Assembly: GCA_024277115.1 (NCBI GenBank)
Contig: JAJRVW010000089.1
Location: 1-39,225, forward strand
Direction: 5' to 3'
Source: Calditrichota bacterium
GTDB lineage: Bacteria; Calditrichota; Calditrichia; Calditrichales; J004
DNA: 39,225 nt
The stretch's first letter is position 1. The number at the start of each line of letters is the position of its first letter. Below the pieces are notes generated by a model that saw only the letters and a program-made list of their open reading frames with translations, was not told where the DNA came from and searched no databases. The position numbers were made by a program, and so were the translations under genes. Positions 1 to 36,083 of the stretch are shown here, in pieces.

Positions 1-23
1 ATGTAACAGAAAGTTTTAGAAAA

Positions 24-85
24 TGTCATTCTGAAAGAATCTTTTTTCTGGAAAACCATAAGAAAAGATGCTTACAGCATGACAT
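24..85. repeat. Intergenic inverted-repeat element, copy 1
   Basis: The ends TGTCATTCTG and CAGCATGACA are inverted repeats with one mismatch, and the interior contains a second pair of complementary A/T-rich arms. The same vocabulary (TGTCAT-CTGA at the edge, GATGCTT/GAAGCATC inside) recurs near 24072 and 27575. It therefore looks like a dispersed intergenic repeat rather than a gene-specific terminator. Lying downstream of the minus-strand ATPase, it could still act as a transcript-end hairpin. The rest of bases 1-197 shows no gene. Confidence 0.5.
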
Positions 86-197
86 TAAGGGGCGTTTTCT
101 TTTAAAACCTCGAAGAATTAAGTCCCATTTCTTATGTCGAAAGACGTTATTTACGGTTTGCATGTTTTTATGTCCTGTAACTTAGAATTGTTTTTCC

Positions 198-977
198 CTA
201 CTTCTTCAACAGCCACAAATAGGCATCTTCCAAAGTAGGGTTAACACTTATTGCCCCATCCATTGGTTTTAACTCGGCCAAAATACGGATACGAATTTCA
301 TTTTCGATACGTGTGTGATGAATGATATTGAATGTATCATCCAAAGCTTCAAACTCTTTTTCCGATAAATGTGCCTGCCATACCTTACCTTTTGCCTCAT
401 CAGCCATGCCCTGTGGAACACCCAGATAATTTAACCGGCCTTTGTTTAAGATGGCCACCCGGTCACATGAGCTGGCAATATCCTCGATAATATGTGTTGA
501 GAAAATCACCACCCGATCGCGGCTTAAATCTACTAATAAATTTCGAAACCGGATTCGTTCGCGCGGGTCAAGCCCGGCAGTCGGTTCATCCACTACCAAA
601 ATCCGTGGTAAGTGCAAAAGGGTTTGGGCAATCCCAACACGCTGCTTCATCCCACCGGAAAAAGAACCGATTTTTTTATGACGGGAATCTTTCAGATGAA
701 CCGAATCCAAGACAAACTCAATACGCTTCTGCCGTTCTTTTTTATCGAGCAGGTTTTTTAAAATAGCCTGATAATTAAGAAATTCCTCAGCAGTAAGATT
801 TTCGTACATACCAAAATCCTGCGGCAAATAACCAATTAATCCTTGCAGCTCCTCGCGGTGCTTATTTACATCATAGCCATTAATGGAAAGCGTGCCATAG
901 CTTTGTTCCAACACACCACAAATAATCCGCATCAACGTTGTTTTGCCGGCGCCATTGGGCCCAAGCAGGCCAAACAT
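198..977 (-). CDS. ABC transporter ATP-binding domain, N-terminally incomplete (continuation of the upstream RND frame)
   Basis: This frame encodes an ABC nucleotide-binding domain with Walker A GPNGAGKT at residues 6-13, a Q-loop in GYLPQDFG, signature SFSGGMKQR, Walker B ILVVDEP with the D-loop TAGLD, and the H-loop histidine in STHIIED. The domain matches the complete ATPase at 14131-15006 in order and spacing, but its first ATG corresponds to residue 30 of that protein, so the N-terminal strands are missing. Those residues (FTALEGVSL, then IKNG) are present in the same frame just upstream, split from this part by a single TAA at 990-992. No good ribosome-binding site precedes the ATG. The most likely original product is one RND-ABC fusion of about 1557 residues. 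As a free protein it would probably be unstable or inactive unless made by readthrough. Confidence 0.85.
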   Translation of the reverse strand: MFGLLGPNGAGKTTLMRIICGVLEQSYGTLSINGYDVNKHREELQGLIGYLPQDFGMYENLTAEEFLNYQAILKNLLDKKERQKRIEFVLDSVHLKDSRHKKIGSFSGGMKQRVGIAQTLLHLPRILVVDEPTAGLDPRERIRFRNLLVDLSRDRVVIFSTHIIEDIASSCDRVAILNKGRLNYLGVPQGMADEAKGKVWQAHLSEKEFEALDDTFNIIHHTRIENEIRIRILAELKPMDGAISVNPTLEDAYLWLLKK

Positions 978-989
978 GCCATTTTTAAT

Positions 990-992
990 TTA
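990..992 (-). other. In-frame TAA interrupting the RND-ABC fusion frame
   Basis: The minus-strand reading is ...GTATCGCTG TAA ATTAAAAATGGCATG..., so VSL-stop-IKNGM. Alignment with the cluster's other ATPase (CVSFEISEGL) places the stop where an ordinary residue should be. One C-to-T change from CAA (Gln) would explain it. No frameshift is involved, and the reading frame is open on both sides. Confidence 0.85.
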
Positions 993-3900
993 CAGCGATA
1001 CACCCTCTAAAGCTGTAAAAGGTTGTGTACGTTTCCCTACAAGTGGAAAAACGGCAACAAGTTGATAAAAAAGTTTACGGACAAAACCGAAGCGCCCACT
1101 GATTTTATTTATGTCTATTTTTTTTGCCTCAAGTTTTTGCGCCCCCTTGTAAACAATCAACAAAAAAGACCAAATCAAAAACATAAAAACAGCCGATGTC
1201 GGGCTATCTAATTTTAAGAATATGAAAACAATATTTAGAACAGGAATGCCCCACAGAACGCTACCATGAACCCAATCCGGTTGTTTTATTTTTTGCATTC
1301 GGAGAAGATTATTGGCCAAGTGCAGGCTTAAAGCGTAAACAATATGCATCATCAATACAATCCAAAAACCGGATTCCAGATAAAAATAGACAAAGTAAAC
1401 CGTGAAGATCCAAAGCACTATTTTCCATACTTCCCGGAGGATCAACTGCCAAAAGGATAAATGCATTCCGCTATTTAAAGTATTTGCACTTTTACGTTTC
1501 CATTCTTTTATAAAGCGCCCGGGCAAACCATACATTTTATAAATATTATTTATTTTGATGGTAATTTCCTCGCCCTCGGAGATATAATCTGATCGTGCTT
1601 GTCTTAAGCTATTTATTATAAAATAAGTTGTCCCGGGTATAATAAACAGTAGGGTAAAAAGATTGGCGAACTGCCAAATCCAGCTTTCGATATAAACATA
1701 AATGGCTACAACGCCGGTTATAAAAAAGATAGCCTGAATTATTTTAATACGCGGATTTAACGCTTTAAGCCAAATTAAACTGTTCTCTAAACCCGAATAG
1801 ACCGTAGGGATAAAAACAAGTGTGAATACCGTGCTTAATGAAAGTCCTCCGATTACTGCTATGGCAAAAGGAGCTGCGATACGTGTAACATATTGCTCTT
1901 CGCCAAGAGCGAGGGGAATCATAGCCACAATGGTGGTGAGTGCCGTAATGAGAATTGGCCTAAGGCGTGCTTGCCCGGATAGTAGTATCGCCCGCTCCAT
2001 ACGCATACCACGGCGGCGTAATTGCTGGGCATAATCAATCAGGATAATGCCGTTATTGACAACAATCCCAAGTAAAATTAATAGCCCGATCAGCACATTC
2101 ACATTGGCGATTGTATTACCGGAAAAAATTATGGCCCACAGCGAACCGGTGGCCGCCAGGGGAATTGTAAACATGATAATAAAAGGTTTTAATAAAGATT
2201 CGAAAACTGAGGCGAGGATCATAAAAATTAAAATAAAGGCAACAATAAATAAAAATTTAAAGTCGCCCAATTCAATATCTTCGTGCTCAATTTGCACGGC
2301 CAAACCTGATGGCAGGACAATAGACGCAACAGCATCTTCCACTTCTTCCCGTGCTGCCTCAAGTAGGGTGGACGAGCTGTTTATCTCGCTCACAAAATTA
2401 TAACTTACCTCAATGCGCCGCTCCTGGTTAACCCGGTTAATCCCTGCGCTACCTGTTGCCAAATACTGTTCACTTATTTGACCAAGGGGATAAACTGCGC
2501 CGCTTTGCGATTGAATATTTAGCTGCTCCAGGTCTGTACGGTTTTTTTGTTCCAGGTTGGCATTGCGGATGACGATATCATATTCATCCAATCCGTCTGT
2601 AAAACTAAGCCCGGTGGAGATTTCATTTTGGAACGACGAAAGCTCGGAAGCGATGACATTAAAAGTAATCCCTAAACGTGAAAGTTGCTCGTGGTCAAAT
2701 AATAAATGGAGTTCCGGGCGTTGCCGGGTGGCATTATTCCGCACCCGCGCTATGGATGATAAATCCTCCAATGCACCTTCCACATCATCTGCAAAAAGGC
2801 GCATGATGTTAAAATCTTTGCCGGTAATAATAATTTTACCACCGTTATTAGTAATCCCCAAAGCAGACATCAGGCCGCCGCTGATTGCCCCAGCAGGACC
2901 TCCACCGCGTCCACTAAAACGCATGCTGTTTTCGGGTTGCTCAAAACTCACATCGGCAGTAGAATAACGGCTTGTTATTTCATTTATAAATTCCTTAACC
3001 TCGGCAATATTGCGACCGTCAACCGCACTATAATCCTCCTTCAACTTCAGGGTCAGCACCGCTTCCTGCTCATAGATTTGACTTACTACATCCTGAAGTT
3101 CTTCAATCTCCGTAAACTTTTTTTCAAGTTCCTGCACAGCAAGATCGGTACGTTCCAGCGTATCGCCCTCGGGCATGGTCACATACAAGTTAAAATCTTC
3201 CAACTCAACATCTTCGGCGCCGGTCATACCCAAAACCAATGCCCAAACTACACTGAGTACAAAAACCGACACGGTGATTATTACCGTGCGTGCCGGGTGG
3301 CGCAACATGGTTTTTAGGATAAGGTTATAAAAGGGTAAAAATTTTCCCGATGTCACTGAGAACTGTATGGAATCAACGGAGCCTTTTTTTCCGGAAAGAA
3401 AAAAATAAGCAGCCATCGGGATGAGTACCAAGGCTGCAAATAATGAAATCAACAAAGTTGAGATTATTGAGATGCCAATTTGGAAACCAATTACACGGAT
3501 GATGTATTCATCTGCAAAAATAAAAGGGAGAAAGATTGCAATAGTGGTTAAAGTTGAGGCAGAGACCGATCGCGCCATTTGCCGGGTACCCTGTTTTGTT
3601 GCTTCAAGATAATCGGGATTTCGCCTGGCATTTCGATAAATATTTTCCAGAACGACAATGCTATTATCCAGCAACATACCTATAGCCAGGGCAATACCCA
3701 CCAGCGTAAGGTTATTCAGGGTTATATCAAAAGCATAAAAAACATTATAAGCCGTTAATACCGAAACAGGAATGGTAAGTGCAATAATCAGAACCAGGCG
3801 CAAATTACGCATAAAATACCATAAAATAATAATGGCCAAAATACCACCCCAAAAAGCCAGGCGGATAATCAGGTTAATATTATCTTCCAAAACTTCCGCA

Positions 3901-4871
3901 CTGTCCAATTGCACAACAATTTCAATATCCTGGTATGCCAGTTCTTTATTTAGGCGTTCAATCACCCGCTGCGTTTCGTGGGAAAGATCAATTAAATTGA
4001 CTTGTGTATCACGCACTAATTGCATAGTTACGGCTTCTTTGCCATTCACCCGGCTTATCGATGTCTCTTCGCGCACGGCAAAATGAATCGTGGCAATATC
4101 CTTTAAAAGAATGTTGCGTTGGGCATCCACTACGATATTTTCGATTTCACTTATTCGCGTATAATCACCCACCACATTCACTGTATTTTTAAGTTGATGA
4201 TTATCTACCTGCCCGACAAATGTTGTACTTTGCCGATATTTTGCAATAAGTGAACGCACCTGTCCGGGCGTTATGCCATATGCCTCGCTTTGTTGATTAT
4301 CGAGCACAATATTAACCGCACTTAAGCGGCCACCAAAAACCTCAACATTTGCAATGCCGTCAATAGACTCAAATTCTTTTTTGATTTCTTTATCGATTAT
4401 TGTACGGATTCTGTCAATACCGCCACTGCCCCGAACCTGAAGGTTCATAAACATATTGCTCAAGTCCTGGGTATCAATTTTTATAACTTGCACAAAAAAA
4501 TCGGATGACAATGAAGATTTTATGCCATCAATTTTTTCCTGCAATTTCAGGAAGGCATATTTCATATTTGTAGTGGGGTTGTAGCTGATATAAATCGTGC
4601 CACTCTGGCGACCGGCGCGGGATTCAATTTTCTCCACATCTTCCAGCATACCAACGGCACTTTCCAGGGGAATCAACGCTTCTCGCTCTAAATACTCCGG
4701 GTTCATTTCACGCCCCGCAGATACTTGCACAATTAATTGCGGCAACTCGATGACCGGCAGTAATTCCAATGGAAGTTGTTTGTATGAAATATAGCCCATC
4801 AGCGAAAGGCCAAGAAATAGCATAGAAATTAAAACTTTGCGCTGAAAGAACGATGTGATTTTTTTTGTCAT
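990..4871 (-). CDS. RND efflux permease with a C-terminal six-TM extension leading into an ABC ATPase
   Basis: Residues 1 to about 1029 are a full HAE1/AcrB-like RND permease: an N-terminal TM helix, porter domains, the TM4 motif GMLLDNSIVVLEN (D402, N403) and the TM10 motif VNNGIILID (N939, N940). It would export hydrophobic substrates across the inner membrane with the adaptor and TolC encoded upstream. Usual family length is about 1030 residues; this one is 1293. The extra part has about six hydrophobic segments (near 1045-1062, 1066-1084, 1139-1160, 1168-1185, 1205-1220, 1226-1242), with a strand-like stretch ITIKINNIYKMYG between the second and third. It ends in FTALEGVSL, the beginning of an ABC ATPase domain. 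A TAA then stops the frame, after which the ATPase continues in frame. It starts 34 bases after the preceding RND gene. The RND identity is certain; whether the fused product is made is unknown. Confidence 0.93.
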   Translation of the reverse strand: MTKKITSFFQRKVLISMLFLGLSLMGYISYKQLPLELLPVIELPQLIVQVSAGREMNPEYLEREALIPLESAVGMLEDVEKIESRAGRQSGTIYISYNPTTNMKYAFLKLQEKIDGIKSSLSSDFFVQVIKIDTQDLSNMFMNLQVRGSGGIDRIRTIIDKEIKKEFESIDGIANVEVFGGRLSAVNIVLDNQQSEAYGITPGQVRSLIAKYRQSTTFVGQVDNHQLKNTVNVVGDYTRISEIENIVVDAQRNILLKDIATIHFAVREETSISRVNGKEAVTMQLVRDTQVNLIDLSHETQRVIERLNKELAYQDIEIVVQLDSAEVLEDNINLIIRLAFWGGILAIIILWYFMRNLRLVLIIALTIPVSVLTAYNVFYAFDITLNNLTLVGIALAIGMLLDNSIVVLENIYRNARRNPDYLEATKQGTRQMARSVSASTLTTIAIFLPFIFADEYIIRVIGFQIGISIISTLLISLFAALVLIPMAAYFFLSGKKGSVDSIQFSVTSGKFLPFYNLILKTMLRHPARTVIITVSVFVLSVVWALVLGMTGAEDVELEDFNLYVTMPEGDTLERTDLAVQELEKKFTEIEELQDVVSQIYEQEAVLTLKLKEDYSAVDGRNIAEVKEFINEITSRYSTADVSFEQPENSMRFSGRGGGPAGAISGGLMSALGITNNGGKIIITGKDFNIMRLFADDVEGALEDLSSIARVRNNATRQRPELHLLFDHEQLSRLGITFNVIASELSSFQNEISTGLSFTDGLDEYDIVIRNANLEQKNRTDLEQLNIQSQSGAVYPLGQISEQYLATGSAGINRVNQERRIEVSYNFVSEINSSSTLLEAAREEVEDAVASIVLPSGLAVQIEHEDIELGDFKFLFIVAFILIFMILASVFESLLKPFIIMFTIPLAATGSLWAIIFSGNTIANVNVLIGLLILLGIVVNNGIILIDYAQQLRRRGMRMERAILLSGQARLRPILITALTTIVAMIPLALGEEQYVTRIAAPFAIAVIGGLSLSTVFTLVFIPTVYSGLENSLIWLKALNPRIKIIQAIFFITGVVAIYVYIESWIWQFANLFTLLFIIPGTTYFIINSLRQARSDYISEGEEITIKINNIYKMYGLPGRFIKEWKRKSANTLNSGMHLSFWQLILREVWKIVLWIFTVYFVYFYLESGFWIVLMMHIVYALSLHLANNLLRMQKIKQPDWVHGSVLWGIPVLNIVFIFLKLDSPTSAVFMFLIWSFLLIVYKGAQKLEAKKIDINKISGRFGFVRKLFYQLVAVFPLVGKRTQPFTALEGVSL

Positions 4872-4905: not shown

Positions 4906-7900
4906 TTACAAACCCACCCTCAGCCTCTCCACATAATAATACACACAAGGTATCACAATTAGGGTTAATACAGTGGAGCTAACCAACCCACCAATAACCG
5001 CGATGGCCATCGGTGCACGTAAGGCAGCGCTTTCACCAAAACCAATCGTGAGTGGCAAGAGCGCTAAAATTGTGGTTAGGCTGGTCATAATAATCGGCCG
5101 GATACGCAATTGCCCCGCTTCAATAATCGCCGGAATAAGTGCCCTGCCGTTAATCCGGAGCTGATTAATGGCATCCACCAAAATAATCGAATCATTAACA
5201 GCAATGCCCATTAACATAATGATGCCAATATAAGCCATTACATTTAGCGGCATATTTAGTACAAAGAAAATAATAATTACGCCAACGGCCGCTAAAGGTA
5301 CGGTTAAAATAATCGTGAAAGGGTGTAGCAGGGATTCAAACTGCGCTGCCAAAACCATATAGATTAAAACGATGGAAAGGATTAGGGCAAATTTTAAACT
5401 GGCAAACGACTCACTCCGTTTTTCCTCTTCACCCGTAATTTTAAAAGTATAATTTGGAGGAAAACCGACTTTGTTCAAACCGTCTTTTACCTGTGATGCA
5501 ATCTCGGAAAGTGCGAAACTTTCATCAAAGTCGGCGCTGATCCAAGCAATACGTTTTTGGTTTCTTCGATACAATTCGCGTTGTGATTCAATGATATCAA
5601 ATCGGGCCAGATCGGTTAAGGGAATTTTTTTCTCCCCGCTATATATAAATGCATTTTTTAGATCGGCCAAGGTCAAATCAGGATAGGCAACATTAATATC
5701 CCGCAGTTCGCCATTATATTCCCACGAACCCGAACTTTGACCGGCCAGCAGCTCTTTTAATTGGTTGCCAATTTGCTCAATACTCAGATTATTATAACCG
5801 GCCACGATACGATCGATCACTAAATTAATTTGCGGCCTGCCTGCCTGAACACTGGTCTCAATGTTTTTTAAGAAGGACAGTTTTTTCAATACCTGTAATG
5901 ATTTTTCTGTCAACACCTTAAGTTCTTCCTGGGCATCACCTGTGATCTCCACCATCAACGGAGCGCTTATATCTGTTCCTAATGTGGCATTTAAAGAGGA
6001 CCCTTCCGGCTTAAGGCGATATTCTACATTTTCAAAGGAATCTAAATATGCTGAGACAAACCTGGAGAGATGCTTGGGTTGCCATGCCTCATTTTTAGTA
6101 AAACGTATCTTTAATAAAGCGCTATTTTCATTTTGCACCGTTTCGCTTGTATTGCCCGTCACCGAGGATGGCATTTCTCCAATTTGCGTATAAAGCACAA
6201 TGGAACTATCGGGAAATGATTGCAAAAGACCGTTCTCCAAACCTTCAACAAACCTATCGGTAAAAGTAAGATTTGTCCCCTCCGGCAAAGAAATTTCCAG
6301 GCTGTATGATGCGCTTTTTCCTTTAGGGATAAATTCGCTCTTCATAAAAAAAAGAGCGGCTGCACTAAACAGTACGGCAATCACAGAAAGCAATAGAACT
6401 GTTTTGCGTTTTTGAAGCACCAACTCCAAAAAGCCTTTATAGCCCTTAAATTGGATCGATTTACTTTGCCGAACCCCCTCTTTTAAAATCCAGTTGCTCA
6501 ACATGGGGATGACCAAAATTGCTACAACCAACGAGGCAATCAATGAAAAAGCAACGGTCCAGGCCTGCGCCTTAAATAATTCTGCTGAAGGGCCTTGCAC
6601 ATAAATAATTGGCAGGAAAACAATGATCGTTGTAATTGTTGAAGCTGTAATTGCCCCCGAGACTTGACTTGCCCCTTTTATGGCAGCTTCTTTCAAGGCC
6701 AGTCCTTCTTCCAATTTCCGGAAAATACTTTCCATTACAACAATGGCATTATCCACCAACATGCCCGCGCCAAGGGCCAACCCGCCAAGGGTCATTATAT
6801 TTAAAGAAAGCCCATTAAAATACATCAGGTTAAATGTGGCTACAATAGAAATGGGGATGGCCAGACTAATAACAATAGTTGTTCCCGCGCGCCGGAGAAA
6901 AACAAACAGGATCAGTACAGCCAGCAGAATCCCATAAATGGCGCTTTGTTCCACCTCGTTGATGGCGCTGTTGATAAATTTGGCTTGGTTGCTGATCACC
7001 GAAAATTTATAACCCGGCAATGCCTTTTTTATTTTCTTCAGTGCTTCATTTACTCTTTCCACTGCGGTTACAGTGTTGGATTTTGTCTCTTTATAAATAG
7101 CCAGGCCAACACTGCGCACGCCATTTATTTTTACCAGGCTTTGTGGCTTTTTATTGGCATATTTAACCCGTCCAACATCACTTAAAAGCACGGGTACCTG
7201 CCCTTGTTGATCAGGGCCTTTATAAGCGACCACAACCTTATTGATTTCATCCAAATCTTCGAAGGTGCCCAACCCTTTTATCACATATTTTTTTCCTAAT
7301 TCCTCGATTGAGCCACCGCTTATATCGAGATTTGAAGCTTGGATACGAGCGGCTACATCAGCTATGCTCAGACCATACGCATCTAATATTTGTTCTTCCG
7401 TCTCGATACGTACTTCTTTTTCCTCTCCGCCAATTACCTCCACCGCCGCCACACCGTCCAGCCGGATCAGTTCGTTTCGTATATAATTGTCACCTATGCG
7501 GCGCAGTGCATCCATATCCGTTATTTCCGGGTGGGAAAGACCAAGTAATAGAACCGGCGCGCCATTGGGGTCAAATTGTGAAAGGTTCAGTTCGTCAATT
7601 TCTGAGTTTTGGGAAAAGCGTGCGAGGTTTTTCTGCAGGTTAAGAAAAGCTTCATCCATGTCGGCATCCCAATTATAGACAACAGTGATTTGCCCCTGGC
7701 CTACACGCAAAATGGAAGAAACGGAAACGACTTTTCGTTGACGCATCACCAGCGCCTCGATATTATCAATAAATTTGCGTTCCAGTTCATCGGGCGGCAA
7801 TTCTCCCGATTTAATCTCGATATAAATACGTGGATTGGTCATATCCGGAAACAAATCTACAGAAAGCCTTTCGAAAGAAATAAGCCCCAGCAAGCCAACT

Positions 7901-7962
7901 GCGCTGATCAGCATAAGTACCGTTATGGGGAATTTTACAGAGAATTCGCTGATTGATTTCAT
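4906..7962 (-). CDS. RND efflux permease (HAE1/AcrB-like)
   Basis: This is a 1018-residue inner-membrane RND permease of normal length. It has the N-terminal TM helix followed by SFERLSVDLFPDM, two periplasmic porter/docking loops, and duplicated six-helix membrane halves. The TM4 motif is GMLVDNAIVVMES and the TM10 motif GIAVNDSIILVD, so the AcrB positions D407/D408/K940 read D/N/N, as in many non-AcrB RND groups. It is expected to act as a drug or lipid exporter, possibly as a heteromer with the second RND protein encoded 34 bases downstream (as in MdtBC). It follows the adaptor gene after a 209-base gap that contains an inverted repeat. The ribosome-binding site is weak (AAGAAA). The substrate cannot be deduced. 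Confidence 0.95.
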   Translation of the reverse strand: MKSISEFSVKFPITVLMLISAVGLLGLISFERLSVDLFPDMTNPRIYIEIKSGELPPDELERKFIDNIEALVMRQRKVVSVSSILRVGQGQITVVYNWDADMDEAFLNLQKNLARFSQNSEIDELNLSQFDPNGAPVLLLGLSHPEITDMDALRRIGDNYIRNELIRLDGVAAVEVIGGEEKEVRIETEEQILDAYGLSIADVAARIQASNLDISGGSIEELGKKYVIKGLGTFEDLDEINKVVVAYKGPDQQGQVPVLLSDVGRVKYANKKPQSLVKINGVRSVGLAIYKETKSNTVTAVERVNEALKKIKKALPGYKFSVISNQAKFINSAINEVEQSAIYGILLAVLILFVFLRRAGTTIVISLAIPISIVATFNLMYFNGLSLNIMTLGGLALGAGMLVDNAIVVMESIFRKLEEGLALKEAAIKGASQVSGAITASTITTIIVFLPIIYVQGPSAELFKAQAWTVAFSLIASLVVAILVIPMLSNWILKEGVRQSKSIQFKGYKGFLELVLQKRKTVLLLSVIAVLFSAAALFFMKSEFIPKGKSASYSLEISLPEGTNLTFTDRFVEGLENGLLQSFPDSSIVLYTQIGEMPSSVTGNTSETVQNENSALLKIRFTKNEAWQPKHLSRFVSAYLDSFENVEYRLKPEGSSLNATLGTDISAPLMVEITGDAQEELKVLTEKSLQVLKKLSFLKNIETSVQAGRPQINLVIDRIVAGYNNLSIEQIGNQLKELLAGQSSGSWEYNGELRDINVAYPDLTLADLKNAFIYSGEKKIPLTDLARFDIIESQRELYRRNQKRIAWISADFDESFALSEIASQVKDGLNKVGFPPNYTFKITGEEEKRSESFASLKFALILSIVLIYMVLAAQFESLLHPFTIILTVPLAAVGVIIIFFVLNMPLNVMAYIGIIMLMGIAVNDSIILVDAINQLRINGRALIPAIIEAGQLRIRPIIMTSLTTILALLPLTIGFGESAALRAPMAIAVIGGLVSSTVLTLIVIPCVYYYVERLRVGL

Positions 7963-8171: not shown

Positions 8172-9224
8172 TCACCTTACAATCTTTACTTTGGAGTGGT
8201 TGCGCAGGGTCTCAAATCCTTTAATTACCAACCGTTCACCTTCTTTTAATCCGGAGAGTACTTCTACATTCTCTTCATTTTCAAGCCCTGTAACAATCAC
8301 CCTTTGTTGCGCGGCGCTTTTTTCCACTACAAAAACAGTCTTACCGCGACGCTTGGAAAGAATTACATTTTGCGGGATGATTAACGCACTGTCCTGAGAA
8401 GCGACAATCGTTTCTAATTTTACAAACATACCCGGACGTAGTTTATTGTTAGGATTATCCACAATAATTTTAGTTTTAAATGAACGGCTTTGGACATCCA
8501 ACGCAGGATCAACCTGCTGTACGGTTCCAATCAATGTATCACCCGGTAAATTATATTGGGTTACGCGCACAAATTGCCCACTTTTAATCCGCCCCAGTTC
8601 TTTAGCAGGAAAATCGACTTCAGCATACATAGTTTTATAATCCATTACCTCCGCCATAATCTGCCCGGCGGCAGTATACACGCCATTTGTGTAATAAGGC
8701 AGGCTGGTGATTACACCATCAAACGAGACAGTAACTCGTAATTTATTCAATTGGATTTTTGCATTTTCAAATGCATATCGTGCATCCATATAAGCACGCT
8801 CAGCATTGATCAATTCACGTTGGGTTACCCCACCCTTTTTAAATAAAGATTGCTGCTTCTCATATTCACGTTTGGATATATCCAAGGTTAATTCTTTGGA
8901 GTTGTAAGCAATATTATTTTCAAATTCCGGGTTATCTAAAAAGATTATCACCTGGCCTTGGGTCACTTTATCCCCCGGGCGAAAAGGTTGGCCACTTTCG
9001 GGGTTTTTTGCCAGCCGATAGTACCCGTCTGTCTGCGAAAGGAGCGTCTCCTTTTTTTGTGCCAGGATATCCGCCGTAGATGAAACAAATTCCATAATTT
9101 TGCCCCGTTTCAACTCCTTCACATTTACCGGGATTGTAATTTCCAACGCTTCGTCGCCAGCACCGTCATCACAGGAAAGCGAGAAAAAGGCTAAGCTCAA
9201 AAATATTATCCATGATTTTTTCAA
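8172..9224 (-). CDS. RND membrane-fusion (periplasmic adaptor) lipoprotein
   Basis: A 350-residue HlyD/AcrA-family adaptor linking an RND permease to an outer-membrane channel. The N-terminus is a lipoprotein signal ending in the lipobox LSLSC, with C18 as the predicted lipidated residue. It is followed by a lipoyl/barrel-sandwich half (GDKVTQGQVIIFLDNPEF), a helical hairpin (ISKREYEKQQSLFKKGGVT), the second lipoyl half (VSFDGVITSLPYYTNG), a beta-barrel region (YNLPGDTLIGTVQQVDP) and the membrane-proximal domain ending VKIVR. The start codon is TTG at 9222-9224, chosen because AAAGGAG lies at a good distance upstream and the signal peptide begins directly there. It sits between the TolC-like gene and the two RND permease genes, as expected for a tripartite pump operon. 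Confidence 0.94.
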   Translation of the reverse strand: MKKSWIIFLSLAFFSLSCDDGAGDEALEITIPVNVKELKRGKIMEFVSSTADILAQKKETLLSQTDGYYRLAKNPESGQPFRPGDKVTQGQVIIFLDNPEFENNIAYNSKELTLDISKREYEKQQSLFKKGGVTQRELINAERAYMDARYAFENAKIQLNKLRVTVSFDGVITSLPYYTNGVYTAAGQIMAEVMDYKTMYAEVDFPAKELGRIKSGQFVRVTQYNLPGDTLIGTVQQVDPALDVQSRSFKTKIIVDNPNNKLRPGMFVKLETIVASQDSALIIPQNVILSKRRGKTVFVVEKSAAQQRVIVTGLENEENVEVLSGLKEGERLVIKGFETLRNHSKVKIVR

Positions 9225-9289: not shown

Positions 9290-10765
9290 TTATTTCGGGG
9301 TTTGTGTTACGTTTACCGCCTGGTCTTTTTCAAAATCCCACAAGGCTTGTACTTTTAAATCAAGTAATAAAAGTTTGTAATTAATTTGCGCGTCCACCAA
9401 GCTATTCTTTTTAGTGGAAAGCTGGTTCTGGAACAAGTTCAGGTCCATACTGGTCAGGTCACCGTTTTTGTACCGTTCCAAATTAATGTCATAGGTTTGT
9501 TGGGCAATCTTTACATTTTGTTTGGCCAGCTCAATTTGCAAAGCCTGGTTTTCCAAAGAACGATATGATTTCCTTAAACCGATAACAATATTTATTTTTT
9601 CATCTTCACGGTTAAATCGCGCTGTCTGTACCGAGATTTGCGCCGCTTTATCTCTCGATTTTTGCTCGCCCCAATCATAAAGGGGCACATCAAAAGAAAT
9701 ACTGACATCCTGGTTCTTATCCTGGTTATCAAATATTTTATTTGCTGATTCGTTTGTCCCGGTAAATCCATAACTTAAACGGACATTTCCTTTAAACTCG
9801 TTAGTGGCCGCTGCGCGCACCAAACTTGCTTTTGAACTGCGAATATCCAAATCACGCTGACGTAGCTCCATACGGTTAGCCAAACCCAGTTTAATTGTCC
9901 GCTCGAGTGATACCGCCACTTTTTTTTGATTAACCGTAGCAACCACTGATATATCTTTGTTAAGCTCTACACCCAAAAGTTGCTTTAAATCATCCAAAGA
10001 GTTTTGCAGGGTTACTTCACCATTTTGCATGGCAGAGCGGCTGGTAAGCAGGTTTAACTCGGCCTGGTAAAGTTCTTCTTTTGCCGAAAGCCCGGCATTT
10101 ACTTTGTTCTCAATTATTTTATAACTTTTCTCCGTATTGGCCAGGTCTTCCCGGCTAACCTGTAAGGCCAATTTGTTTTGATATGCACGATAAAAAACAT
10201 TTGCAACCTGCTGCTCCAGTTGCAATTCACTAATAACATAGCTCAGATAGGCATAATCTAAATCAGCTTTCACATCTTCCAAAGCCAGCTTTGTCCGGTT
10301 ATAGGTAAAAAGGGGTTGATTAAATGAAATGAACAAATTGTTGGAATAAATCTTATTTCGTATATCGCCCTGAAACTCGCTGCGGGTATCGCGATAATCA
10401 AGCGTATTTTGCAGGGACAGAGTCCCATCTGTTAATAAAATGGGTTGCGAAATTGTTAACGTCCCGCTGGATCGTTTTTCTTCCCGATCATTAAACCGGC
10501 CAAGCAATGCCTGAAAATTACGGCTACGGGTAAAAGAAAAAGGCTCTATATTTAAACTAAAATACGAATTAAGCGCCGCTTCCTGGGCATTAAGCAATTC
10601 CTGGTTGCGTTCCAGGTTTAAACGGGCATTTCGGATATTGGGGCTGTGTTCTTTGGCAATGGCCAGGGCTTCATCAAAATTGATGATTTGCTGGGCCGAA
10701 AGCGGCAGATATATTAAAAAGGACAAAACTAATATTATAACATTTCGCATATTTTTATCTTTCAT
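9290..10765 (-). CDS. TolC-family outer membrane efflux protein
   Basis: A 491-residue outer membrane factor with a cleavable Sec signal (ending LPLSAQQ) and the internal duplication typical of TolC. Each half has a long coiled-coil helical pair, for example DEALAIAKEHSPNIRNARLN near the N-terminus and LGLANRMELRQRDLDIRSSKASL in the middle. The family's C-terminal pattern NLERYKNGDLTSMDLN followed by LVDAQINYKLLLLDL is clear. It provides the outer-membrane exit duct for the adaptor and RND pumps encoded just downstream. Two ATGs lie close together; the first has AGGA upstream at a loose distance, while the second (MRNVIIL) gives a tidier signal peptide. Its gene begins only 38 bases after the reconstructed end of the permease/peptidase gene. 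Confidence 0.95.
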   Translation of the reverse strand: MKDKNMRNVIILVLSFLIYLPLSAQQIINFDEALAIAKEHSPNIRNARLNLERNQELLNAQEAALNSYFSLNIEPFSFTRSRNFQALLGRFNDREEKRSSGTLTISQPILLTDGTLSLQNTLDYRDTRSEFQGDIRNKIYSNNLFISFNQPLFTYNRTKLALEDVKADLDYAYLSYVISELQLEQQVANVFYRAYQNKLALQVSREDLANTEKSYKIIENKVNAGLSAKEELYQAELNLLTSRSAMQNGEVTLQNSLDDLKQLLGVELNKDISVVATVNQKKVAVSLERTIKLGLANRMELRQRDLDIRSSKASLVRAAATNEFKGNVRLSYGFTGTNESANKIFDNQDKNQDVSISFDVPLYDWGEQKSRDKAAQISVQTARFNREDEKINIVIGLRKSYRSLENQALQIELAKQNVKIAQQTYDINLERYKNGDLTSMDLNLFQNQLSTKKNSLVDAQINYKLLLLDLKVQALWDFEKDQAVNVTQTPK

Positions 10766-10802: not shown

Positions 10803-10891
10803 CTATTCTTCCAACTCAACTTTAACGGCATCGGCAACAATCATACGTGCATCGCTGTCATCCGTCAAAATAATTTTGGCCGTGCCCTCTA
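10803..10891 (-). other. Out-of-frame tail of the permease/peptidase-like gene (frameshift at T8)
   Basis: Directly after the stop of the 10889-14113 gene, another minus-strand frame reads LEGTAKIILTDD and then MIVADAVKVELEE before TAG at 10803-10805. The pattern GTAK-(I/V)-x-L-x-D followed by VADAVK is the characteristic end of golvesin/xanthan-lyase-type C-terminal domains, and the first part of that domain lies in the upstream frame. The frames meet at a run of eight T (plus-strand A8 at 10891-10898). One additional T, or a -1 slip, would join them into a 1103-residue product. Confidence 0.8.
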
Positions 10892-13800
10892 AAAAAAATA
10901 ACTTTCCAAATAATTCCAACCCGGCTCAGCTTCAGAAAAATCCAACTCAATTTCATCTTCTCCTTCGGCATGATAAATAATATATTTTTGCACGCCAAAA
11001 GAACCGCCCCCACGGCGTCGCAATCTAAAATCACTACGATCCGGTACATGAATAAAAACCTGGTAAACCCCATCTTTGGGGATTTCGACCATCCAGGTTG
11101 CCTTACGCTCCCCGGAACCGCTGCGCGCATAATAGGCCGAGTGTACAAACTGGCCATACAACGATGGAAATTTTATTTTTTGCCATTGGGTTGGGATACG
11201 CCAAGACTTAAATCCAGCATATTCTTCTTTTTCTTTCTGGGCCCCTTTATGTACCCATTCTTTTAATTTGCTGTGATATTGCGGTTGCACATAACCAAAT
11301 TCATTGTTATTGTCATCGACAATGGAATTATTTTGTACTGCATCAAATTCTTTCCAATCTATTTCACTAATGCCATCGATGGCCTTTTTATTAATACGCA
11401 ACTGCGCGTCATCAAATAGAAAAGTGTAGGTGGCCGGCAAGTTTTGGGAAACAAGTGTGTTTACCCGGATTGTGCGTGGCTCGGTATCCAATACAATCCC
11501 AATTTGATTGGACTTCCCTGCCTTTATTTCAAATAACCATTTTTCATTATTTGCGGCCAGCCCTTCTGTAAAACGGCGGCGTCCCTCACCGGGGAAGCTA
11601 AAGCTAACCTCGATAAGGCCGTCTGTTTCTGTGGGATTCTTTACTATAAACAAAGTCTGATAACGCAACCTTTCCCCGTCCCGAATCTGATAAATTTTGA
11701 AGCCATCGATTAAAAACCCGGGCAGTTTATCTTCATGCTGCCAACGCCTCAATTCATCTTCCAAATCAAATTGGTATGTTTGCTTTAACGTGCTGGCGAT
11801 CGAATCAATCGGTACACTTTTAAAGCGATGGCGCTGTACCAGACTGGCCATAAAACCCGTAAAATTTTCCTTCCCCAGGGCATACTCAATTTTTTTTAAA
11901 AGGTAGCTCCCTTTTACCGCCAAAACCTTATTGACTAATTCTCTGTCGGCCGTTTTCATAATATAATCCAGGCTTGTATCGGCCAAGGCAAGATTTGCTT
12001 CTTCGGCATCGGTAAGCGCGCCCAGGGCCCAACGATTTTCCGAACTTGCCGGGGAGGCAGATAGCCGGAGGTTAGACTCCAACGCGATGGCAAAACCCTG
12101 ATTTTCTGCACTGCCCAATTTTAAAACAAAATTTAAAAAAAGTGGGTAAATAGTCAGATCGGGAATAAAGGAGCCCATATCCCCACCGCCAAAACGCCAG
12201 CCTCGCGCCCCGGTAAAGGTATTTGTGGCAAACCGTCTAAATAACATGATCTCTTTTTCGAGATCGGTAAAAGTTTGGTTGCCACGGTTTCCAAAACGTT
12301 TTCGGCGTTGCTGTAAATATTTAAAATAGGATGCTGAAACAGTTGCCAGGTTTTCCGGAAGCCAAACCTGCCCGGGTTGCAATAAATCTGCATTCGCCCG
12401 CCCATTGCGTTGATAGGCGTATAGATGGATCGGGGTTTCGACTAGACTTAGCCGGGAAAAAGGATAATCCAAACCAATCTTATTTTCAAAATCCTGCATA
12501 ATGCTTGCCACCAGCTCCGGCAAAGTATCACCAATTTCCTTAAAAAATTCTTTGTAATAATCATGTTTCGCCAGCGAGTACACGGCAACTTCCAAACTGT
12601 CTGCCCAAATTGATTGTTTTGTATAGGACCCGATGACCAGGGAAATCTCTTTTAAGGGCTGCCTGTTTTTAAATTTTGTTTTACTCTCACTAAGGACAAT
12701 AACCTTCCCTTGGGAAACAGCCGTTAACCCAGCCCGGGTTTCAACTTCTAAATTAAACCGGGAAAATGGCTTTAACAAATCGCGCTGGCCGGCGTGGCCA
12801 ATTTTGGGGTACCAATATAATGATGGAGGCAAACGCAGGTAATCCGGATTGTTAAATGCAAAGCGTGGCTCAGACCTGAACAACCAGATATAATTGGTTT
12901 GCTGCCTTTCTTCACCTGCAATATCCGGGTAGGCGATGCGATCATCAACATGGCCGGAATAGGCAATTTCCAGCAAGATAGATTTATCTACTTCCAATTT
13001 TTCCAACAGACTAATTTTAAGAATAAGCCCCTCATGCCCAAAGGGGACAATCTTGCCCGCTTGTTTTACCTGCTTTATTTTGAGCCCCGGATTTAACAAT
13101 AATTGCAAACTATCCAATGAATGATTGGTACGATTCTCAATGCGAAGCTCTGTATTTACCACAATTCGATTGCCTGCATGACGTAGCTTGATGTCATAGC
13201 TTTTAACCTGAAAATCTGCGTTTTCAGAAAAGGACTTTAACTGGTTCGAGATTGTATCACGAAGCGCCTGGCCTGTTTGATAATAATTGAGATAATTAAA
13301 AAATGAGATTGCACATAATATTGGAAGGACCACCAAAGCGCTAAAAATAAAAACCCGCGCCTTATTTGATTGCGGCAATCGTTGAACCATAAGGATGCTG
13401 AGCAGCATTAAAATCACCCCAAATATAAACCAGCCCATACGTTGTGAAATTAAAATCACAGGGTTGCTCAATCCGTTAAAATCAGAGTATATAAAAGGTA
13501 GTTTTACAGCAAGGACATCTAAGACAAGATAGGGCAAATCGATCGAGGCAATTAACAAACCCACGACCAAAATTATAACAACAGCCTGATTGCGGATGAC
13601 GTACATTAAAAACATTGTAAGCCCAACGCTAAAAACAATTGCCGGCAGAGAGAGCAGAAACGGATAAATTAAATACGCCTGCCAAACAACAGGTTGTGTG
13701 CTAAAAAATATATTTATGATTAACCCGACGAGCAGATAAATAAAGTTTAAGCTAAAAAAAAGTAGCAAAACCCCTGAGATTCGGCCCAGAATAAAACTTA

Positions 13801-14113
13801 AATTACTCATATCACGGATATAAATGACATCGGAGGTATTAAATTTTTTATCACGTTTATACAAATCCGTGGCAAGAAAAACCAGTACAATAATCAGCAC
13901 ATACTGTGGCAAAGCAATATTCATATAAGGTAAAAATGAATCGATGGGATGCAGGAAACGCGGGACCGGCGAAACCGAACTATGGAATAAAACATCTAAA
14001 CCGGCCAAACCCAAAATTGAACCAACGGCAAAAATTTTAAAAAACCAGCTGCGCAGCAGGATTTTAATCTCGTATAAAGCATTTATTTTTAATGATTGGT
14101 AAAAACTAGTCAT
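10889..14113 (-). CDS. ABC-2-type permease fused to an M1-peptidase-like region and golvesin-type C-terminal domain (frameshifted end)
   Basis: Residues 1 to about 285 contain the cytoplasmic start and several TM helices of an ABC-2 permease (IKILLRSWFFKIFAVG at the start). The remainder should be extracytoplasmic. Residues from about 300 to 870 follow the M1 aminopeptidase layout: an N-terminal beta domain (LTAVSQGKVI), a region aligning with the catalytic domain start (FSRLSLVETPIHLYAYQ), and a helical part (KGSYLLKKIEYALGKENF). However, neither GAMEN nor HEXXH is present, so it is not an active M1 zinc peptidase. Near 960-1074 a golvesin-type domain begins (HSAYYARSGSGERKATW, VYQVFIHVPD) and is cut by a frameshift at a T8 run. 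It follows its partner ATPase gene by 17 bases. Permease/M1 fusions are known in Bacteroidota-type genomes; the lost active site and added domain are the unusual parts. Confidence 0.85.
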   Translation of the reverse strand: MTSFYQSLKINALYEIKILLRSWFFKIFAVGSILGLAGLDVLFHSSVSPVPRFLHPIDSFLPYMNIALPQYVLIIVLVFLATDLYKRDKKFNTSDVIYIRDMSNLSFILGRISGVLLLFFSLNFIYLLVGLIINIFFSTQPVVWQAYLIYPFLLSLPAIVFSVGLTMFLMYVIRNQAVVIILVVGLLIASIDLPYLVLDVLAVKLPFIYSDFNGLSNPVILISQRMGWFIFGVILMLLSILMVQRLPQSNKARVFIFSALVVLPILCAISFFNYLNYYQTGQALRDTISNQLKSFSENADFQVKSYDIKLRHAGNRIVVNTELRIENRTNHSLDSLQLLLNPGLKIKQVKQAGKIVPFGHEGLILKISLLEKLEVDKSILLEIAYSGHVDDRIAYPDIAGEERQQTNYIWLFRSEPRFAFNNPDYLRLPPSLYWYPKIGHAGQRDLLKPFSRFNLEVETRAGLTAVSQGKVIVLSESKTKFKNRQPLKEISLVIGSYTKQSIWADSLEVAVYSLAKHDYYKEFFKEIGDTLPELVASIMQDFENKIGLDYPFSRLSLVETPIHLYAYQRNGRANADLLQPGQVWLPENLATVSASYFKYLQQRRKRFGNRGNQTFTDLEKEIMLFRRFATNTFTGARGWRFGGGDMGSFIPDLTIYPLFLNFVLKLGSAENQGFAIALESNLRLSASPASSENRWALGALTDAEEANLALADTSLDYIMKTADRELVNKVLAVKGSYLLKKIEYALGKENFTGFMASLVQRHRFKSVPIDSIASTLKQTYQFDLEDELRRWQHEDKLPGFLIDGFKIYQIRDGERLRYQTLFIVKNPTETDGLIEVSFSFPGEGRRRFTEGLAANNEKWLFEIKAGKSNQIGIVLDTEPRTIRVNTLVSQNLPATYTFLFDDAQLRINKKAIDGISEIDWKEFDAVQNNSIVDDNNNEFGYVQPQYHSKLKEWVHKGAQKEKEEYAGFKSWRIPTQWQKIKFPSLYGQFVHSAYYARSGSGERKATWMVEIPKDGVYQVFIHVPDRSDFRLRRRGGGSFGVQKYIIYHAEGEDEIELDFSEAEPGWNYLESYFF

Positions 14114-14130: not shown

Positions 14131-15006
14131 TTAATTCAACAATTCCATAAAACAGACATAAGCATGTTCTAAATTGGGCTCAATTTGTTTGGCTTTAAAG
14201 CCCATTACTTTTTTTGCGACTATATCCACCTGCCAGCCGGAAGCAATGGGAACTGTGGAAATTACAATGTATTCCTGTTTTATTTTTTGCAAGGCGTTGT
14301 CATCTACTTCAAGCTGAAACGTATATTCTTTTGCCATTTCGATTAGCTCTTTTGGCGCACCGTTAAAAGCGAGTTTGCCTTTGTTTAACAAGGCCATATC
14401 CTGGCATGTGCTGGAAATATCACCAACAATATGTGTAGAGAGAATTATAATCCGCTCCCCTTTGGACATATCGGTTAAAAGGTTGCGAAAACGAATCCGT
14501 TCTTCCGGGTCCAGACCGGTAGTGGGCTCGTCTACAATTAGTATTTTAGGGTCACTAATTAAAGCCTGCGCAATGCCTACGCGGCGTTTCATCCCTCCAG
14601 AGAGTTTGTTGGCCAGTTTTTCACGCGAATCAAAAAGGCCAACACGTTCAAGCAATTCATCAATTCGTTTTATGCGCTCTTTTTTATTGGATATACCGGC
14701 CAACCGCGCGCTATAATCTAAAAACTCCCATGTTTTTATTTTGGGGAAGGTACTGAAGTCCTGCGGGAGATAACCCAACATAGCCCTTATTTCTTTACGG
14801 TTTTTTTGTAAATCAAATCCATCGATTTGTACAGCGCCACTTGTCGGTTTCATCAAAGTAACCAAGATGCGCATTAAAGTGGATTTCCCTGCGCCATTTG
14901 GGCCAAGCAATCCAAACAACCCCTCCGATATCTCGAATGAAACACAATCTAACGCCCTGTTTTGATTGGGATAAACCATTGACAGGTCATTTATAATAAT
15001 TTTCAT
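14131..15006 (-). CDS. ABC transporter ATP-binding protein
   Basis: A complete 291-residue ABC ATPase of the ABC-2/drug-export type (CcmA/GldA-like). Walker A is GPNGAGKST at residues 35-43, the Q-loop is in GYLPQDFS, the signature NKLSGGMKRR, Walker B ILIVDEP with TTGLDPEERIRF, and the switch histidine in STHIVGD. A C-terminal extension of about 70 residues ends LEHAYVCFMELLN. It is the first gene of the minus-strand cluster and lies 17 bases before the membrane permease it most likely energises. It is clearly paralogous to the ATPase domain at 198-977, sharing GLLGPNGAGK, GYLPQDF and ERIRFRNLL. Upstream bases 15007-15175 contain no gene and presumably hold the cluster promoter; a TTGACC hexamer lies there, but no convincing partner -10 box. 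Confidence 0.94.
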   Translation of the reverse strand: MKIIINDLSMVYPNQNRALDCVSFEISEGLFGLLGPNGAGKSTLMRILVTLMKPTSGAVQIDGFDLQKNRKEIRAMLGYLPQDFSTFPKIKTWEFLDYSARLAGISNKKERIKRIDELLERVGLFDSREKLANKLSGGMKRRVGIAQALISDPKILIVDEPTTGLDPEERIRFRNLLTDMSKGERIIILSTHIVGDISSTCQDMALLNKGKLAFNGAPKELIEMAKEYTFQLEVDDNALQKIKQEYIVISTVPIASGWQVDIVAKKVMGFKAKQIEPNLEHAYVCFMELLN

Positions 15007-32838: not shown

Positions 32839-34797
32839 ATGAAGTTATCTTTTAAATCATTTTTAATTTTATTAATGTTTGGCCTTTCCTTGGCTATAGT
32901 GAGCTGCCAGCAGGGTTCAGGCAATAGCGCATTAAAAAGCAGTACTGCTGAAAAAGTATTTGTTGCACCTGGCGAATACGACGAGTTTTATGCATTTGTG
33001 TCCGGTGGTTTCAGCGGCCAACTTGCCGTTTACGGGTTACCTTCCGGAAGATTATTTAAAATCATCCCCGTCTTTTCAGTCGATGGCGAAAAGGCCTGGG
33101 GATTCAATGAAGAAACTAAGCCTATGTTGGAAACATCCTATGGGTTTATACCTTGGGATGACTCGCACCACCCGGATATATCCCAAACAAATGGTGTTTT
33201 GGATGGAAGATGGGTATTTATAAATGGTAATAACACCCCCCGGATCGCAAGGATCGATTTAACTACTTTCGAAACTGTTGAGATTATTGAACTGCCAAAC
33301 TCTGCTGGCAATCACAGTTCTCCTTATGTAACCGACAATACCGAATATGTAATCGCGGGTACACGTTTTGGCGTTCCTGTTCCACAAAGGGATATTTCCA
33401 TCAACGATTACAAAGGTAATTTTAAAGGTGCCTTGTCATTTATAAAAATTGATCAGGAAACCGGCGGTATGGATCTTTCCTTTCAAATATTAATGCCTGG
33501 TTTTGATTATGACAAAGCGCATCCGGGCAGGGGCAAATCGGATGGATGGATGTTTTTTACTACATATAATGTTGAAGAAGCAAACACACTGTTAGAAATT
33601 AATGCGTCTCAAAGAGACAAAGATTTTATTGCCGCGGTTAACTGGAAGAAAGCCGAAGAGTATATTAAGGCCGGTAAATTTAGAACTATGAAAACCAAAT
33701 ATGCGCATAACGTATATAATGATGAAACACATTCTGCTACATCGACCATGAAAACAGAAGTCCGCATTCTTGATCCGGGCAATTTACCAGGATTAGTTTA
33801 CTTTTTACCTATGCCTAAATCGCCTCATGGCTGCGATGTTGACCCATCAGGCGAATACATTGTTGGCAGCGGTAAATTATCTGCAAATGTTACCGTGCAT
33901 TCTTTCCCTAAGATGATGAAAGCCATTAAAGAGAAAAAATTTGATGGCGAATCATACGGTATTCCCATTTTAAAGTTTGAAGATGTATTGGCCGGCGTTG
34001 TTGAGCAGCCAGGCCTTGGCCCACTGCATACAGAATTTGACGGCAAAGGAAATGCCTATACCTCATTCTTTATTTCTTCGGAAGTGGTTAAATGGAAATT
34101 GGGGACATGGGAAGTAATCGACAGAAAACCGACTTACTATTCTGTTGGCCATGTAATGATCCCGGGTGGCAACTCTCAGAAGCCATTTGGAAAATATCTC
34201 CTGGCAATGAACAAAATAACCAAGGATCGTTTTTTGCCAACTGGCCCGGAAGTAACCCAGTCTGCACAATTATATGACATTACGGGCGACAAGATGGAAT
34301 TACTACTTGATTTCCCGACCGTTGGTGAGCCACATTATGCGGCAGGTATCCCGGCAGACTTAATTAAGGCGAAATCTAAAAAATTCTTCAAGCTTGACGA
34401 GAACAAACACCCTTATGCTACTAAGAGCCAGGATGATGTTAAAGTTGTCCGCGATGGTAAGGATGTCCATATTTACATGACTACGATCCGCAGCCACTTT
34501 GCCCCTGACAATATTGAAGGCGTTAAAGTTGGCGATCGCGTTTATTTTCATGTTACGAACATAGAACAAGATTATGATGTTCCGCATGGCATCGCTATGA
34601 TTGGCGCAAACACGTCCGAACTTCTTATTATGCCTGGGCAGACAGAAACATTTGTCTGGGAACCAAAAGAAGTTGGTGTATGGCCATTTTACTGTACTGA
34701 TTTCTGTTCAGCTCTGCATCAGGAAATGCAAGGATATGTTCGTGTATCCCCAAGAAACTCAAAAATTAAACTTAGTTGGTCTTTAGACGGTGAATAA
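32839..34797 (+). CDS. nosZ: Nitrous oxide reductase, clade II (lipoprotein/Sec type)
   Basis: A 652-residue copper enzyme reducing N2O to N2 in the periplasm. A lipobox (IVSC, C23) replaces the twin-arginine signal found in clade I enzymes, so it is Sec-exported and probably membrane-anchored. The seven-bladed propeller carries CuZ histidines visible in DDSHHPDIS (H110, H111), GNHSSPY (H159), SPHGCDVDPSGEY and GPLHTEFDG. The C-terminal cupredoxin domain has the CuA site: H583 in DVPHGIAM and CTDFCSALHQEM (C619, C623, H627, M630). All key ligands I can check are present, so the enzyme looks functional. It follows the fasciclin gene by 25 bases; a hairpin after its stop may reduce transcription into the accessory genes. 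Confidence 0.97.
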   Translation: MKLSFKSFLILLMFGLSLAIVSCQQGSGNSALKSSTAEKVFVAPGEYDEFYAFVSGGFSGQLAVYGLPSGRLFKIIPVFSVDGEKAWGFNEETKPMLETSYGFIPWDDSHHPDISQTNGVLDGRWVFINGNNTPRIARIDLTTFETVEIIELPNSAGNHSSPYVTDNTEYVIAGTRFGVPVPQRDISINDYKGNFKGALSFIKIDQETGGMDLSFQILMPGFDYDKAHPGRGKSDGWMFFTTYNVEEANTLLEINASQRDKDFIAAVNWKKAEEYIKAGKFRTMKTKYAHNVYNDETHSATSTMKTEVRILDPGNLPGLVYFLPMPKSPHGCDVDPSGEYIVGSGKLSANVTVHSFPKMMKAIKEKKFDGESYGIPILKFEDVLAGVVEQPGLGPLHTEFDGKGNAYTSFFISSEVVKWKLGTWEVIDRKPTYYSVGHVMIPGGNSQKPFGKYLLAMNKITKDRFLPTGPEVTQSAQLYDITGDKMELLLDFPTVGEPHYAAGIPADLIKAKSKKFFKLDENKHPYATKSQDDVKVVRDGKDVHIYMTTIRSHFAPDNIEGVKVGDRVYFHVTNIEQDYDVPHGIAMIGANTSELLIMPGQTETFVWEPKEVGVWPFYCTDFCSALHQEMQGYVRVSPRNSKIKLSWSLDGE

Positions 34798-34846
34798 TTT
34801 GTAACCAAAAACCAAGGGAAATCTCTAAGTTTTTATAATTTACCTT

Positions 34847-34873
34847 AATGGCTCCGGTTTCTACGGAGCCATT
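34847..34873 (+). terminator. Hairpin terminator or attenuator after nosZ
   Basis: AATGGCTCCG and CGGAGCCATT form a perfect ten-base stem with a seven-base loop, followed by ATTTT. It lies between nosZ and the accessory genes and could set a high nosZ to accessory-protein ratio. Confidence 0.8.
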
Positions 34874-34911
34874 ATTTTACGCGTTTCAATTTGCTTATTG
34901 GATTTAACGAA

Positions 34912-35926: not shown

Positions 35927-35948
35927 TAAAAGATATAATTTAGCTGCA

Positions 35949-35992
35949 AAAAATGAAGTATATCCAAAGGACCGGTTATGCTTCATTTTTTT
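35949..35992 (+). terminator. Terminator between nosL and nosD
   Basis: AAAAATGAAG and CTTCATTTTT form a ten-base stem around a 22-base loop, followed by more T residues. It implies a separate or read-through transcript for nosDFY. Confidence 0.75.
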
Positions 35993-36083
35993 TTATGTAT
36001 TGATCTAAATTCGCTTACAATATATCCCATAGTTTTATTTTATTGAAGTGATAAACAAACAGAACCAGGCAATAAGATACGGC

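Follow-up and report, generated by a model that had tools for sequence, protein, structure and literature searches.

RND pumps and ABC exporters count as distinct classes of transporter, each with an energy source of its own. The locus described here, in a Calditrichota bacterium, raises the question of whether the two can be built into a single polypeptide and, if so, what such a protein might do. A conserved single RND-ABC chain lets one ask whether two engines cooperate on one substrate. The stretch of DNA that we analysed (the window; 39,225 nucleotides) is the entire contig C28 of its genome.

A single frame encodes an RND permease, six membrane segments and an ABC ATPase

The fusion locus occupies positions 198-4871 on the minus strand. 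As had been predicted from the letters of the sequence, an RND permease, six extra membrane segments and an ABC ATPase share one frame here, with a read-through length of 1,557 residues when an in-frame TAA is counted as one residue. The features are listed below.

990-4871, minus strand: RND ORF, 1,293 aa; PF00873 over residues 7-1026, E 1.1e-165
1794-4871, minus strand: RND permease part of the fusion, residues 1-1026; PF00873, aligned with six relatives
1605-1754, minus strand: two extra membrane helices, residues 1040-1089; AlphaFold2 model and hydropathy of relatives
1530-1559, minus strand: predicted first beta strand of the ABC nucleotide-binding domain, residues 1105-1114; AlphaFold2 model strand 135-144
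1128-1454, minus strand: four predicted membrane helices inside the ATPase domain, residues 1140-1248; AlphaFold2 model and hydropathy of relatives
990-992, minus strand: in-frame TAA in the window copy; a sense codon at the same place in aligned relatives
198-1019, minus strand: remaining ABC domain, with Walker A, Q-loop, signature, Walker B, H-loop and C-terminal extension; PF00005, E 9e-30

Both family assignments were borne out by the Pfam matches listed. The RND part is a full-length domain, PF00873 (ACR_tran) matching residues 7-1026 with 553.5 bits against a curated cut-off of 28, and a full-length match over the cut-off was present in 7/7 members of our alignment A1. Residues 1027-1293 form an extra stretch beyond the RND part in the upstream ORF. 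Downstream of the TAA, a stand-alone ATPase ORF (198-977, 259 aa) continues in the same frame.

An AlphaFold2 model of residues 971-1557 (model residue 1 being residue 971), of moderate quality with a mean pLDDT of 75.9 and a pTM of 0.56, predicted an ABC fold with four helices inserted in it. Two helices follow the RND part (residues 1040-1060 and 1064-1089, model residues 70-90 and 94-119); a beta strand comes next, and then four more helices (model residues 170-194, 198-222, 229-251 and 254-278). Because solved ABC ATPase domains align with the C-terminal model from about model residue 131-133, the strand at residues 1105-1114 would be the first strand of the ATPase and the four helices would be inserted behind it. 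Residues 2-239 of 1vpl, for example, aligned with model residues 133-586 over 234 of 238 residues (Z 26.2, rmsd 1.8), reading across the TAA and skipping the insert. In the model, a complete nucleotide-binding fold is present in the read-through chain, and the four helices appear to be an insertion within the ABC ATPase domain, as judged from the aligned length, the comparison table giving end points only. The fold search was a test of the ATPase, and barely one of the six helices.

With its first strand upstream and four helices inserted, the ATPase does not begin where the 259-residue ORF begins, and this ORF is therefore missing the beginning of the fold. Indeed, PF00005 matches it only from profile position 14 onward. 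The original prediction had taken the downstream part for a complete ABC ATPase, which has to be corrected, since its N-terminal portion lies in the upstream ORF. The six membrane segments were recovered, but not as the single block that had been supposed: in both a 19-row alignment and the AlphaFold2 model they are arranged 2 + 4, with the first strand of the ATPase in between and the four lying inside the ATPase domain. A crude hydropathy count over 35 relatives' copies gave two segments before the strand in 22, one in 4 and none in 9, the last class arising partly from copies missed by the pattern for the RND end; after the strand it gave four segments in 22, three in 8, two in 4 and five in 1. 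The fusion thus presents an ABC ATPase domain carrying a predicted four-helix membrane insertion, of which we know of no other instance.

The fusion is found in three phylum-level groups

We searched the RND ORF against 60 genomes (its own, relatives and others of the domain). Some RND match was found in 58/60, and in eight the match spans practically the whole 1,293 residues, namely in the window's genome, G001, G019, G024, G025, G027, G030 and G011. The same-genus relative G001 has a copy that is 80% identical and reads through 1,582 codons without a break. In 6/9 gene-positive Calditrichota genomes (G001, G019, G024, G025, G027 and G030) the frame is uninterrupted, at 1,540-1,683 codons, and runs through the RND part and the extension before terminating in the ATPase. 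G011 (locus L078) carries a different in-frame TAA, inside the RND part, and in G022 the fusion gene is cut by contig ends.

A profile of the extension matched 9/40 of the Calditrichota genomes searched. It also matched 41/82 genomes from the phylum to which a KSB1 MAG belongs, and 6 or more of the 395 sampled from that of a Bacteroidetes MAG; with at most six candidates scored per genome, this last count is a lower bound. The three genome sets have no overlap. In 34 of the 41 positives of the KSB1-type phylum the frame surrounding the extension is 1,431 codons or longer, and the presence of RND and ATPase inside it was confirmed for 11. Named genomes were scanned with a single peptide pattern, so that genome counts are again lower bounds, and this gave 20 loci, including MAGs labelled KSB1, Prolixibacteraceae, Saprospiraceae and Bacteroidetes; several of these loci duplicate contigs of the genomes above (for example, L063 is from G025). 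The RND end, the extension and the ATPase lie in a single frame at 18/20 of them. Uninterrupted homologues therefore exist, and the objection that homologues always keep the two as separate ORFs fails. The two exceptions are L080, which ends within the extension, and L079, which consists of two ORFs: an insert of about 200 bases (5504-5717) separates the two helices from the first strand of the ATPase, and both halves look preserved.

To judge from these reading frames, the fusion is real and conserved across three phylum-level groups, and the hybrid protein that had been proposed from the window stands.

Some further observations concern particular records. One genome, G066, carries besides L075 a second, more divergent fusion copy of 1,585 aa (L131, on contig C288), which has an adaptor, an RND and a gene 7 of its own (see below). 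The record of L062 is labelled Actinomycetota, and its genome, G060, is in the set of the KSB1-MAG phylum, so that the label is probably wrong. Searching plasmid records with the full-length L063 fusion (tblastn, E limit 1e-100) gave no match.

An in-frame stop interrupts the gene in the window's genome

The window copy is interrupted by the TAA at 990-992, which is followed by an ATG after four more codons. At this place the aligned relatives, including those of the 19-row set, have a sense codon. In comparison with G001, pN was 0.092 after the stop, 0.103 in the RND part and 0.25 in the extension between them; synonymous sites were saturated, and for this reason no dN/dS ratio is given. As conservation is no lower beyond the stop than in the RND part, the break is either recent or an error, two cases that saturation at synonymous sites makes indistinguishable. 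It is quite possible, though short of probable, that in this genome alone the gene is a fresh pseudogene, or yields a truncated RND protein and a re-initiated ATPase fragment. The TAA speaks for such a reading and the low pN beyond it against, and the reading is compatible with the explanation that we favour for the family as a whole.

The fusion belongs to a cluster of seven genes

In cluster order, the genes encode an ABC ATPase, an ABC-2/M1-like protein, a TolC protein, an adaptor, an RND permease, the RND-ABC fusion and an ABC-2-like permease. Around the fusion (gene 6) they are placed as follows.

14131-15006, minus strand: gene 1, stand-alone ABC ATPase; PF00005, E 1.1e-33
10889-14113, minus strand: gene 2, large protein with a weak M1-peptidase-like region; PF01433, 21.8 bits, under the cut-off of 27.7
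9290-10765, minus strand: gene 3, TolC-family outer-membrane channel; PF02321, E 5.8e-42
8172-9224, minus strand: gene 4, periplasmic adaptor (membrane fusion protein); TIGR01730, 184.6 bits against a cut-off of 94.9
4906-7962, minus strand: gene 5, second RND permease, 1,018 aa; PF00873, E 8.8e-201
1-197, minus strand: contig end; gene 7 sits on another contig, C229:174-878

The inner-membrane pump, adaptor and TolC channel of a tripartite pump are thus encoded together in the window, and the adaptor, the TolC protein and the second RND bear out the original prediction that the rest of the pump adjoins the fusion. In gene 2 of the window no HExxH motif was found, and the peptidase part therefore looks inactive; presumably this is an ABC-2 permease, a label that we take over from similar proteins. 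The end of gene 2 matches Golvesin_C, under the cut-off. Neither the second ABC ATPase of the cluster (14131-15006) nor the helix insertion in the fused one featured in the original prediction.

We surveyed the cluster at 18 long-contig loci, drawn from 17 of 47 match-positive genomes of the KSB1-type and Bacteroidetes-type phyla plus G066. Fusion and gene 7 occurred together in 18/18 of these chosen loci, and all seven genes in 15/18. The three incomplete loci are L121, without detectable genes 1-4; L131, without genes 1-3; and L130, which has only gene 5, at a distance. In L122, genes 1-5 are on the opposite strand. Of the 20 named loci, 17 have gene 7 behind the fusion and 14 have gene 5 in front of it; the remainder are cut by contig ends, except for L081 and L074. 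In L081, where about 800 bases remain past the fusion, neither gene 5 nor gene 7 was found, and in L074 gene 5 lies further upstream, as seen in L130.

In relatives, gene 7 encodes about 240 residues and stands directly after the fusion. The copy of the window's genome (C229:174-878) is 84% identical to that of G001, and C229 opens with the same 123 bases as the window, in reverse complement. Positions 1-140 of the window belong to a dispersed repeat that matches ten places in the genome almost in full (95-100% identity), four of them at the ends of contigs C28, C227, C229 and C10. As the shared 123-base end is part of this repeat, the joining of C229 to the window rests on synteny.

A model of the gene 7 protein (L063 copy; mean pLDDT 80.4, pTM 0.78) was compared with solved structures. 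Foldseek placed membrane chains of PmtCD, NosDFY and CcmABCD first, with weak E values (best 0.012, none below 0.001). A second structural comparison placed NosDFY chain 7znq_y first (Z 15.9, rmsd 3.6, 212 aligned residues, 13% identity), tied within 1 with ABCA chains, including ABCA1, and ABCG chains. Pfam PF12679 (ABC2_membrane_2) matched under its cut-off, with E above 0.1 in two of three copies. The predicted fold is a strong lead that gene 7 encodes an ABC-2-type membrane subunit, and gene order and fold together make it the likely membrane partner of the fused ATPase. With this separate ABC-2-like permease following the fusion in 18/18 and 17/20 loci, respectively, of the two sets, it becomes less likely that the six helices serve the ATPase as a membrane domain of its own.

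Elsewhere in the window (32839-38803, plus strand) lies a nitrous oxide reduction cluster with a nosZ-type propeller protein, NosL, NosD, an ABC ATPase and a 260-aa ORF without a Pfam match; the last two are labelled NosF and NosY by position.

The ATPase motifs are intact and the fused chains group together

In 19 aligned copies of the fused ATPase, Walker A, the Q-loop, the signature, Walker B with its glutamate and the H-loop are invariant or nearly so. Motif patterns were also counted in 36 copies, chosen for having a Walker A past residue 300, with repeat loci of the same gene dropped; the window (with its stop), L079 and L080 are outside this set. Walker B, signature and H-loop were present in 36/36, and the Q-loop and the first strand in 35/36 each. 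By these patterns, the ABC catalytic motifs appear intact in the fused ATPase. Its best scores were with the GldA and DrrA models, both under their cut-offs; GldA and DrrA are ATPases of separate-subunit exporters. Its nearest relative in its own genome is gene 1 of the cluster (45%).

In a tree of the ATPases, the fused copies are separate from one clade (100/100) of 19 gene-1 proteins. L079 seems to have been split secondarily, since its ATPase half groups among the fused copies. With this split half scored as stand-alone, the fused copies require two label changes on the tree; the outgroup is on very long branches and the root is unsure. The fused ATPases may have one origin. The RND tree (FastTree, midpoint root) counts the window's fusion twice (also as L090) and its gene 5 twice (also as L087), and shows the broken gene of G011 as two pieces. 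In it the fused RND parts form one group of 24 rows with no other row inside, at a low support of 0.618, and the gene 5 RNDs one group of 18 rows with a support of 1.0. Genes 5 and 6 each forming one group over the same loci is as expected of paired subunits.

A model for export in two stages

Sequence and prediction together establish a single frame, intact catalytic motifs and a conserved seven-gene cluster. We propose a model whereby an ATP-driven ABC exporter is tethered to a two-RND tripartite pump and exports in two stages, a model that we hold to be moderately likely. Two fused chains would supply two ATPase domains, dimerising on a dimer of gene 7, and the ATPase dimer and the gene 7 dimer, with its predicted ABC-2 fold, would make up a complete ABC exporter. 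The fused RND and the gene 5 RND would form a mixed trimer with the adaptor and TolC. In the MdtBC trimer the subunit count is 2:1. That mixed RND trimers exist is described for MdtBC in PMC8277102. In the first stage the ABC part, powered by ATP, would move a substrate from the cytoplasm or the inner leaflet to the periplasmic face; in the second the RND part, powered by proton flux, would take it up and expel it through the adaptor and TolC.

The fusion might instead be a tether only, holding together an ABC exporter and an RND pump with different substrates or ensuring that they are made in equal amounts. Such an arrangement is conceivable but somewhat unlikely. It would agree with a cluster that seems to encode every part of both systems, and with L079, where the chain is split and both halves are preserved. 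However, a plain operon already gives co-expression, yet the fusion persists in most copies seen.

A more radical alternative is that the RND trimer works as an ATP-powered pump, driven or gated directly by the fused domain as it hydrolyses ATP. In such a dual-energised exporter the ATPase, welded into the membrane by its four inserted helices, would act directly on the cycling of the trimer, and two fused chains with one gene 5 RND would place two ATPase domains under one trimer. An ATP-driven RND pump would be categorically new; we consider it unlikely, and the dual-energised arrangement as improbable. The covalent link kept in three phylum-level groups is in its favour, and so at first sight are the proton-relay positions. 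When aligned with solved RNDs, the fused RND keeps the equivalents of AcrB D407, R971 and T978, and those of D408 and K940 are Asn, as in every fused row that covers them. According to the sections of PMC8277102 on AcrB, the proton-relay residues are essential and substituting one of them abolishes extrusion. However, the same Asn pair occurs in 9/11 unfused RND loci (L010-L020, top hits and as such biased to close kin) and, with gene 5 excluded, in 4/8 distinct unfused RNDs that span both positions in the window's own genome. Since unfused RNDs carry it too, the pair is not a mark of fusion, and we rejected it as a sign of ATP drive. The substitution at both positions also means that proton drive of the RND part itself is unproven. 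The separate ABC-2-like permease gene that follows the fusion likewise argues against direct drive.

Finally, that neighbouring genes merely look fused, by chance or assembly error, as the stop and nearby ATG of the window copy might suggest, can practically be dismissed, being refuted for the relatives by long frames that run without a break in numerous separate assemblies; moreover, the first part of the ATPase fold is absent from the downstream ORF by itself.

Comparison with known systems

The fusion resembles RND efflux permeases (AcrB, MdtB/MdtC; PF00873) in having a full-length RND part with adaptor and TolC encoded alongside, and mdtBC, too, is a pair of adjacent RND genes, as in this cluster. 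It differs from them in about 530 extra C-terminal residues, which hold six helices and an ABC ATPase. With the separate-subunit ABC-2 exporters (NosDFY, DrrAB, PmtCD) it shares an ATPase nearest to GldA and DrrA and a downstream permease predicted to have the same class of fold; unlike theirs, its ATPase is joined to an RND permease and, in the model, interrupted by four membrane helices.

MacAB-TolC likewise joins ATP-driven export to an adaptor and TolC. In the parts of PMC5595328 that deal with MacB, the protein is described as having an N-terminal ATPase, four helices and a periplasmic domain resembling that of RND. In contrast, the fusion has a full RND permease first and its ATPase last, at the C-terminus, and the Pfam results for full-length fusion members contained no MacB-type domain. 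RND-TolC fusions also combine an RND permease and another pump part in one chain, but there the partner is an outer-membrane channel domain and not an ATPase. The window's genome has such a gene (L083, G000:C71:5901-8990), in which an RND permease is followed by a TolC-type OEP domain in a single frame of 1,458 aa.

Our searches of the open-licence PMC literature, which leaves out preprints, turned up no paper that we could recognise as dealing with an RND-ABC fusion, and this is weak evidence of novelty. The RND, ABC-2 and tripartite parts are of known kinds; their fusion into one chain appears to be new.
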